Below the pieces are notes generated by a model. It had not been told where the DNA came from, made no database searches, and saw only the letters and a list, made by a program, of their open reading frames with translations. Shown here in pieces: positions 23,116-32,222 of a stretch of DNA of 64,000 bases; the first letter of the stretch is position 1; each line of letters starts with the position of its first letter. This DNA is from a virus: positions 1-64,000 of IMG/VR virus record IMGVR_UViG_3300040771_000133; one strand, 5' to 3'. A program made the translations under genes and the position numbers.

Positions 23116-23410
23116 ATTTATAACAAAACCTTAGTCAGTCAATTACAGATGATGCTGGGTTGACTGATTATAAAATAAAACTCTATCCAATTGCAGGTCC
23201 ACATATTAGGTTGTTGGATGATTATGTTAGACAATAGAAGTGAGGAAGTCAAGTTTCATACCTAATTGATACTATAACTACGATAACTATTGCATTCATC
23301 AAGGTGCAACCTTGTAGAGTTTAATAATATATTATGAGTTAAGATTACAGAGATTAGTTGTAATCCTATAAATCTTTGAAAGCTATGAAGCAAGTAAATC
23401 TTATAATATC

Positions 23411-23512
23411 ACTTATACACACCTAGAGAATATTGTGTATAAGTACTAGTATGATCGTTGATAGATTATAGAACGTTAGTAAGACGGGAGTTCGATTCTC
23501 CCCAGCTCCACA
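23411..23512 (+). ncRNA. ssrA: tmRNA, acceptor (3') piece of a permuted gene
   Basis: GACGGGAGTTCGATTCTCCC with CAGCTCCA is the standard tmRNA 3' end: a 5-bp T stem (23486-23490 with 23498-23502), loop TTCGATT and acceptor strand CAGCTCC (23503-23509). CAGCTCC pairs perfectly, allowing one G-U, with GGGGCTG at 23851, which lies downstream, not upstream. Two more helices join the pieces: GTTAGT (23475) with GCTAAT (23871) and ATTATA (23465) with TATAAT (23883), matching the long P2 of tmRNA. A 10-bp hairpin ACTTATACAC/GTGTATAAGT lies at the 5' side. The end reads CACA, so CCA is not fully encoded. Confidence 0.75.
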
Positions 23513-23850
23513 AAGAGTCCGTGTAAACTCAAAATAACAGTTAGTGTAAATGTTTAACACCCTTATCAGTAGATGTAACAATTATAAGCATTAAATTATT
23601 ATTAATATTAACAATGATGTATAACGAGTAATTAACGTATTTATCACATAACCTGAAGCACCTTTTAAAATGTCAGGTATATGTAAATCGAAACTTTTGC
23701 ACAAACTTCGAGAGTTGTGTCTAAGTCGTTGAGGACCTACTTTATGAATTGATAATTAATATACCATTGATTAATAATGATTTATATAAGAATAAAACTT
23801 ATAGTTGAGGAAATGTAGATTAACAACCTACACTGTTATTTTATTCAAAA
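23513..23850 (+). other. Spacer between the two tmRNA pieces
   Basis: About 340 bases with no gene. It contains small hairpins such as ACCTGA...TCAGGT (near 23650-23680) and TGTAG/CTACA (near 23815-23832). In permuted tmRNA genes this segment is removed after transcription. It is longer than I would expect, so it may hide another element. Confidence 0.4.
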
Positions 23851-24124
23851 GGGGCTGACTGGTATTGATTGCTAATAAAGTATATAATAAGTAGATTATA
23901 TTAAACAATAACCGCAAACATTTTTGCAATTAACAATGAACCATTAAGAATGGTAGCATAGTTACGTAAAAAAGAGAACGACATCTCTAAACCATGTGCA
24001 CGTAGTGAATATTGCACATGGTTACTAATTAAATATTAACATGTAAAACGCAAACCCGTAGACTCTAAATGCATAAGATGAGGGGCACTCTACATACTGG
24101 ATGACCTCTGTTAATATTTTACAA
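23851..24124 (+). ncRNA. ssrA: tmRNA, coding (5') piece of a permuted gene
   Basis: Begins GGGGCTGACTGGTATTGATT, the classic tmRNA 5' end. A short frame after a GCAAA/TTTGC hairpin could encode the proteolysis tag: from GCA at 23926 it reads AINNEPLRMVA then TAG (23959). A following strong hairpin, ACCATGTGCA (23991) with TGCACATGGT (24013), has a loop TAGTGA that can pair with TTACTA just after it, as in a tmRNA pseudoknot. A further closed domain is bounded by AATATTAAC (24032) and GTTAATATT (24110). Tag frame and exact ends are inference. Confidence 0.75.
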
Positions 24125-31925: not shown

Positions 31926-31999
31926 AGTAGTGTAAGTCTCAGTTGGTAGAGCTAAAATTAGAGAAATTTTGGTCACAGGTTCAAGTCCTGTCACTATTA
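31926..31999 (+). tRNA. tRNA-like element, anticodon position GAG, unusual loop
   Basis: Seven-pair acceptor stem AGTAGTG/CACTATT, a D arm with the standard loop AGTTGGTA, anticodon stem AAAAT/ATTTT and T arm ACAGG-TTCAAGT-CCTGT. Oddities: the anticodon loop reads TAGAGAA, so the nearly invariant T33 is A; there are two extra bases before the D stem; and GAG would mean Leu, yet there is no long variable arm. It may be a decayed tRNA or a tRNA mimic rather than a working Leu tRNA. Confidence 0.5.
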
Positions 32000-32151: not shown

Positions 32152-32222
32152 TGGTGCAACCATGAGTCAGGTTACGGACAGATTAAATCGTCCAAGTGCG
32201 GGTTCGAGTCCCGCTGCATCCT
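32152..32222 (+). tRNA. tRNA-like element, possible anticodon TAA, irregular
   Basis: A perfect T arm GCGGG-TTCGAGT-CCCGC, acceptor strand TGCATCC pairing at six of seven places with TGGTGCA, and a D loop with GG (GAGTCAGGTT). The anticodon arm is irregular: GGAC/GTCC around a ten-base AGATTAAATC that can pair further. TAA would fit Leu but the variable region has only four bases. It may be decayed or specialised. Confidence 0.45.

Follow-up and report, generated by a model that had tools for sequence, protein, structure and literature searches.

The window analysed here is a 64,000-nt stretch of viral DNA (positions 1 to 64,000 of IMG/VR record IMGVR_UViG_3300040771_000133), and at 23411–24119 it carries a permuted tmRNA gene, consisting of an acceptor piece (23411–23510), a 340-nt spacer, and a coding piece that begins at 23851. 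Both sequence inspection and a partner scan identified this acceptor-before-coding order with its intervening spacer, and all elements of the T arm and 3′ end (23486–23510) and of the 5′ end (23851) lie where an initial annotation, made from the sequence alone, had placed them.

Layout and pairing of the tmRNA gene

The features of the gene, with the observations on which each is based, are as follows.

23411..23446, + strand: hairpin, or perhaps an H-type pseudoknot, with which the acceptor piece begins; stem ACTTATACAC/GTGTATAAGT, identical in the related locus L005
23447..23482, + strand: 3′ strands of P2, TAGTATGATC (23447–23456), ATTATA, and GTTAGTAA (23475–23482); fold, pairing, compensatory changes, 13-gene comparison
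23486..23502, + strand: T arm, GGGAG-TTCGATT-CTCCC; Rfam RF00023 match (E = 1.2e-9), partner scan
23503..23510, + strand: 3′ strand of the acceptor stem, CAGCTCC, with discriminator A73 (CAGCTCCA); RF00023, scan, pairing
23511..23850, + strand: intervening sequence of 340 nt, predicted from known two-piece tmRNAs to be removed in processing
23515..23842, + strand: ncRNA in the spacer, here called D; homologous sequence lies 3′ of the standard tmRNA in L043, L033, L034, L026, and L080
23531..23540 and 23833..23842, + strand: terminal helix of D, AAAATAACAG/CTGTTATTTT, with compensatory changes; D also has a 5′ hairpin, GAGTCCGTGTAAACTC
23851..23862, + strand: 5′ end of the coding piece, with the acceptor 5′ strand GGGGCTG (23851–23857) and the D-loop-like start ACTGG; scan, counterpart in L005
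23869..23903, + strand: 5′ strands of P2, TTGCTAAT (23869–23876), TATAAT, and GATTATATTA; fold, 13-gene comparison, compensatory changes
23914..23961, + strand: tag frame GCA...TAG, encoding ANIFAINNEPLRMVA and a stop; sequence, homologous frame in L005 called by ARAGORN
23991..24028, + strand: stem ACCATGTGC/GCACATGGT with loop TAGT; three double compensatory changes between the window and L005
24031..24119, + strand: additional segment closed by the stem AAATATTAAC/GTTAATATTT; L005 lacks it

Between the pieces, the acceptor stem comprises 7 bp and includes G3–U70, the pair that confers alanine identity, while P2 totals 24 bp in three segments: GTTAGTAA/TTGCTAAT (8 bp), ATTATA/TATAAT (6 bp), and TAGTATGATC/GATTATATTA (10 bp). 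The acceptor stem and the helices GTTAGT/GCTAAT and ATTATA/TATAAT proposed at first are all present, and P2 proved larger than claimed, with the 10-bp segment as the addition. The T loop conforms to TTCRANN, and CCA is not encoded because CAA comes straight after A73 (23510), in agreement with the incomplete CCA described earlier. The tag-like frame ending in VA-stop was likewise found, with both a resume codon and a stop; the C terminus of the tag is MVA, versus the usual LAA. When the joined pieces were folded unconstrained with an arbitrary linker, they adopted the tRNA-like shape with all P2 segments (z = −3.26), and none of 200 shuffles was as good.

Outside this core, the CTAG loop of the hairpin at 23411–23446 could pair with the CTAG just 3′ of it in a possible pseudoknot, and the TAGT loop at 23991–24028, whose stem (23991–24022) covaries, could pair with a downstream ACTA, in which case the second pseudoknot stem would be only 4 bp. 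The segment at 24031–24119 may or may not be part of the coding piece, rather than separate from it, and its core motif was absent from every other locus fetched. We also noted a hairpin module, (stem)-C.(C/G)TAGNGAATATT-(stem)-TACTA, that occurs twice in the window gene (23411–23446 and 23987–24028), with similar modules outside tmRNA in RNA-rich regions of other crAss-like phages (L078, 310–351, minus strand; L057, 324–358, minus strand).

The terminase, portal, and major capsid genes of the carrier match crAss-like PHROGs, which supports the Bacteroidota phage setting suggested at the outset; crAss-like phages infect Bacteroidota. Its closest named terminases are those of crAss-like phages, at about 38–41% identity, and since the nearest is only ~41% identical, the carrier is assigned to no named family and represents an environmental branch. 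The tmRNA lies 8.4 kb from the terminase gene in the window and 8.6 kb from it in L005, and a terminase search gave 79 related loci.

Program searches and comparison with a close relative

ARAGORN reported no tmRNA in the window. RF00023, the Rfam tmRNA model, matched the acceptor piece only, and over the whole 95,876-base record it found this site alone (E = 3.8e-9); a standard-order match with the 5′ part first was not encountered in the window, and full-length standard matches occurred only in relatives. The permuted model RF04321 gave the gene 10.1 bits, under its cut-off of 47, and its matches at 32198 and 23894 were rejected as noise. Most likely, ARAGORN and RF04321 miss the gene because its spacer is long. 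ARAGORN was silent at spacers of 340 nt (window) and 601 nt (gut phage cr56) and made calls in cr114 (159 nt) and cr125 (166 nt); the T loop of cr56 is odd as well, a second possible obstacle. Elsewhere in the window, a tRNA at 31926–31999 (38.6 bits by Rfam) was missed by ARAGORN.

A standard gene with an overlooked partner nearby was considered and rejected, as the scan in both orders gave permuted pairing only: the sequence before the acceptor piece offered no 5′ partner, and no T arm followed the coding piece. That the gene is not permuted in function, its halves coming from separate standard or partial genes, is likewise extremely improbable: no complementary standard-order 5′ or 3′ partner lies within 700 nt, the helices of the two halves match each other, the 95.9-kb record has a single RF00023 site, and we found nothing in favor of separate genes.

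The most informative relative was L005, whose terminase is 98% identical to that of the window and whose tmRNA is reversed in the same way around a spacer that measures 65 nt, versus 340. Identity between the two genes is 94.7% over 114 nt of the acceptor piece and 82% over 206 nt of the coding piece. In L005, ARAGORN calls a permuted tmRNA (tmRNA*) with the tag ANIFAINNAPVRLAA followed by a stop, and the RF04321 score is 64.0 bits, which clears the cut-off of 47. Across 55 bp in seven helices, the two genes are separated by five double compensatory and three compatible single changes, with no pair broken; two of the double changes sit in P2 and therefore link both pieces across the spacer. 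To judge from the sequences, assembly error or decay would not produce such a pattern. The idea that the locus is a decayed remnant or a chimera (the 3′ fragment of a tmRNA beside a 5′ fragment of other origin, or a product of misassembly) does fit the fact that annotation programs left the gene uncalled, yet it conflicts with the same order around a different spacer in L005, the compensatory changes, the preserved tag frame, and the independent permuted genes in RefSeq phages, and we regard it as very unlikely. The original proposal of a permuted tmRNA with its 3′ piece encoded first is thus borne out by order, pairing, compensatory changes, and the layout shared with L005. Gene order, pairing, and tag frame are established at the level of sequence, and with high confidence we take this crAss-like phage to carry a true two-piece tmRNA gene in circularly permuted order. 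Against this reading stand the 10.1-bit score, the silence of ARAGORN, and the MVA ending of the tag.

Transcription, processing, charging, and tagging would be expected to follow the known family, for which a two-piece model has been described (PMC11915505; PMC9004378). A single precursor with acceptor piece, spacer, and coding piece would be transcribed and would fold into the acceptor stem, T arm, and 24-bp P2, with the spacer as the closing loop of the acceptor stem. RNase P would then cut before G23851, 3′ trimming would occur after A23510 with the CCA-adding enzyme completing the end, and removal of the spacer would leave two RNAs held together by about 31 base pairs. Given G3–U70, the RNA would be charged with alanine, and host SmpB and EF-Tu would deliver it to stalled ribosomes, where the tag ANIFAINNEPLRMVA would be added; the phage might benefit from ribosomes kept free late in infection, or from tagging with non-host peptides. 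In the window phage, the spacer would also carry a second structured RNA, D, whose presence there could complicate processing.

Permuted tmRNA genes among Bacteroidota phages

Permuted tmRNA falls into three main bacterial clades (PMC11915505) and is already known from phages, with 53 cases, mostly marine or aquatic, counted by ARAGORN (PMC9004378). Our literature search found no paper describing it in crAss-like phages, several of which have it in RefSeq via automatic annotation. The initial annotation named no other case from a Bacteroidota phage, but the window gene is not the only one: the order is shared by L005, by a second environmental crAss-like phage (G021; 70.3 bits with RF04321; terminase 58% identical to the window's and placed in another clade), by at least eight human-gut Suoliviridae (cr52_1, cr53_1, cr56_1, cr60_1, cr109_1, cr114_1, cr115_1, and cr125_1), and by Maribacter phage Panino (PP540027; tmRNA* by ARAGORN; 39-nt spacer). 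Five of the Suoliviridae (cr52_1, cr60_1, cr114_1, cr115_1, and cr125_1) are called tmRNA* by ARAGORN, and RefSeq labels those five SsrA. Permuted tmRNA recurs among Bacteroidota phages, and the window case is not unique.

Exact pattern searches of IMG/VR with the coding piece, tag, and P2 returned just L005 and the IMG/VR copy of cr60_1. Acceptor-pattern matches in L115, L116, and L118 were rejected, each having a standard-order partner; L117 matched the pattern as well. Also set aside was a 3′-end-like match in G005, a relative in which other tmRNA matches are absent; it belongs to a ~62-nt tRNA-like gene (L098, ~1562–1501, minus strand) with a 7-bp acceptor stem, a hairpin, and a T arm and without an anticodon arm. 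This gene may be a tag-less tmRNA, such as phage DS6A reportedly has. We rejected a host origin of the permuted form as well, since the Bacteroidota MAGs with the same acceptor end as the window, Saprospiraceae among them, have ordinary tmRNA in standard order (114–126 bits). Among 395 Bacteroidota genomes, a single one passed RF04321, and the genes around its match, for DNA polymerase, helicase, and exonuclease, are phage-like.

In 13 permuted genes, the strands of the acceptor stem, P2a, P2b, and P2c pair in 98.5–100% of cells within their own genomes and in 57–73% when strands were swapped between phages; the own-genome figure is favorable by construction because the blocks were hand-picked, and the window–L005 test is the cleaner one. 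Hand-placed blocks and the strand-swap control were adopted because a MAFFT-only alignment misplaced P2 in divergent members. G3–U70 was present in all 13 genes.

Compared with the alphaproteobacterial, betaproteobacterial, and cyanobacterial forms (RF04321 and RF01849–RF01851), the window gene is alike in piece order, acceptor stem, T arm, cross-piece P2, and tag frame, and it differs in its Bacteroidota phage carriers, its 340-nt spacer with an apparently independent ncRNA, and the lack of an encoded CCA. RF01850 reached 38.0 and 33.0 bits in L095/L096, under its cut-off of 84, and no match to RF01849 or RF01851 was listed in the Rfam search of relatives. Marine phages such as Methylophilales phage Melnitz, for which a glutamine riboswitch is also reported, and the pelagimyophages likewise bear permuted tmRNAs, which follow alphaproteobacterial or other known bacterial lineages (PMC9004378); here, in contrast, the carrier is a crAss-like phage, its host phylum has standard tmRNA, and D lies in the spacer. 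The SsrA genes of the five Suoliviridae share the permuted order, G3–U70, and helix plan of the window gene but differ in P2 sequence, in their GNTSYVMDYTRLAA-type tags, and in what some of the spacers contain (cr114_1 has a tRNA there, and the related cr56_1 an endonuclease gene). Panino is permuted like the window, with the tmRNA inside a tRNA cluster, and it gave no match to the terminase of the window.

Several observations concern the contents and surroundings of these genes. The tRNA gene of cr114_1 (L172, 1341–1412; 63.1 bits) lies within the permuted tmRNA spacer, an arrangement with one earlier report (PMC11915505). Antisense 'endonuclease' genes occur in or beside the tmRNA of cr56_1 (L162, 847–1428), cr113_1 (L165, 847–1428), and cr6_1 (L174, 606–1208), and the two compared with Pfam gave no match; that of cr56_1 lies inside the 601-nt spacer, and cr109_1 retains only a fragment. 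The T loop of cr56_1 and cr109_1 is unusual (TATCGTAT). In cr4_1 (L170, NC_055893), a group I intron (RF00028, 75.4 bits) at 581–870, followed by an antisense HNH endonuclease gene, is located upstream of the T-arm 3′ half of a permuted tmRNA, apparently an intron-bearing permuted gene. RAGATH-9, RAGATH-20, and RAGATH-7-associated RNAs were found upstream of permuted tmRNA in several gut crAss-like phages (L161, 71–228 and 1163–1264; L162, 516–613; L165, 500–600; L172, 817–984; L174, 240–361; L175, 997–1124). ARAGORN additionally predicts a permuted tmRNA with the tag ANDTSFDVRLAA in Pseudomonas phage PaMx31 (Samunavirus; L177, 939–1359), and an acceptor end of similar kind turned up in Achromobacter phage Axy11.

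The spacer RNA and the origin of the permuted order

The spacer length of about 340 bases given at first is accurate (340 nt), but this is no plain spacer, as it holds the separate conserved ncRNA D. D is present in 12 IMG/VR contigs; in L043, L033, L034, and L026 it immediately follows the standard tmRNA on the 3′ side, in L080 it sits about 170 nt further away, and in L009 and L201 roughly 1–1.3 kb further. Its terminal helix is AAAATAACAG/CTGTTATTTT in the window, AAGTAGTAG/CTACTACTT in L026, and AAATAATAG/CTATTATTT in L009, with compensatory changes, and an Rfam search with D gave no match at E up to 10. D is an independent, covarying structured ncRNA of crAss-like phages, apparently undescribed. 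Its loci (window 23515–23842; L094, L092, L093, L084, L087, L089, and L191–L201) range from ~65 to 330 nt and share the conserved core GAAATGTAGATTRACAA. In L005, D has been lost except for its first hairpin sequence (GAGTCCGTGTAAA), while the 340-nt spacer of the window matches the D of L034, much of the variable arms included. A further conserved element, upstream of the permuted tmRNA at 23119–23322 (L005 ~1118–978, minus strand; AGTCAGTCAA...TTGACTG; AAAACTCTA...TAGAGTTT), is probably structured.

Within the window's own phage family, tmRNA in standard order was found in L043, L033, L080, L048, L009, L023, L026, L040, and L034, and in the four of these with both genes in one locus (L043, L033, L080, and L048) it lies ~8.5–9.3 kb from the terminase. 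The family's standard tmRNA (L043, L080, L034, L009, and others) shares with the window gene the neighborhood upstream of the terminase and has D on its 3′ side; it differs in order, in its mostly long tags, and in the conserved TCAGCCAGAGAG/AAGCTGTA of its P2 loop. Mapped onto the terminase tree, the permuted state requires no fewer than three changes, each imposed by branches with good support, and therefore several origins, transfers, or reversals. The tmRNA core tree (~128 columns) sets the permuted genes apart from the family's standard ones with 98/99 support, with Panino as the nearest non-sister (93/81). This grouping is compatible with a single origin of the permuted genes but is merely suggestive, because some columns depend on the form itself.

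Permutation in place would involve a tandem duplication of tmRNA and D, followed by loss of the 5′ part from the first copy and of the 3′ part from the second, leaving acceptor piece, D, and coding piece in that order. The homology of D and the remnant hairpin in L005 are as predicted by such a duplication with reciprocal loss. Near relatives with standard tmRNA in the same neighborhood and D directly 3′, the resemblance of the spacer to the D of L034 down to much of the variable arms, and the nesting of the window, L005, and L006 among standard-form phages in the terminase tree all point the same way. However, the tmRNA core sequence falls with the permuted tmRNAs of other phages, a result that form-specific columns may bias, and the L005 tag ending NNAPVRLAA is common to the permuted gene of G280 and not to the local standard tags. 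We consider this history plausible but somewhat short of an even chance.

Alternatively, a permuted lineage circulating in Bacteroidota phages may have replaced the standard gene, with recombination putting the local D in the spacer. Such an acquisition fits the core tree grouping, the unrelated Bacteroidota phages with permuted genes, and the form changes forced on the terminase tree, and NNAPVRLAA in both L005 and G280 speaks for a shared permuted ancestor. Two joins would nevertheless be needed to set the local D between the pieces, and the tree derives from about 128 columns, some of them shaped by form. We find the case for acquisition evenly balanced, which puts it slightly ahead of permutation in place. 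Inclining rather to doubt, we also suggest that Bacteroidota phages may hold one or more permuted tmRNA lineages that arose outside the three known bacterial ones, and that the window clade may have been permuted recently at the tmRNA–D locus, with the spacer as a trace of duplication that now carries a second functional RNA.

What is new here is that the spacer is another conserved RNA gene and that both gene orders coexist in one phage family. The steps to permutation cannot otherwise be watched, because the permuted tmRNAs known so far come from a small number of old bacterial lineages; with standard and permuted genes in the same neighborhood, and an independent spacer RNA that matches the 3′ flank of the standard gene, the tandem-duplication model becomes testable by comparison. 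Permuted genes whose spacers are long or carry cargo escape present tools. Few viruses of the human gut are as abundant as the crAss-like phages, which frequently encode a ribosome-rescue RNA themselves, with tags that depart from the familiar ones; they provide a new setting for studying how RNA genes of swapped order arise and spread.
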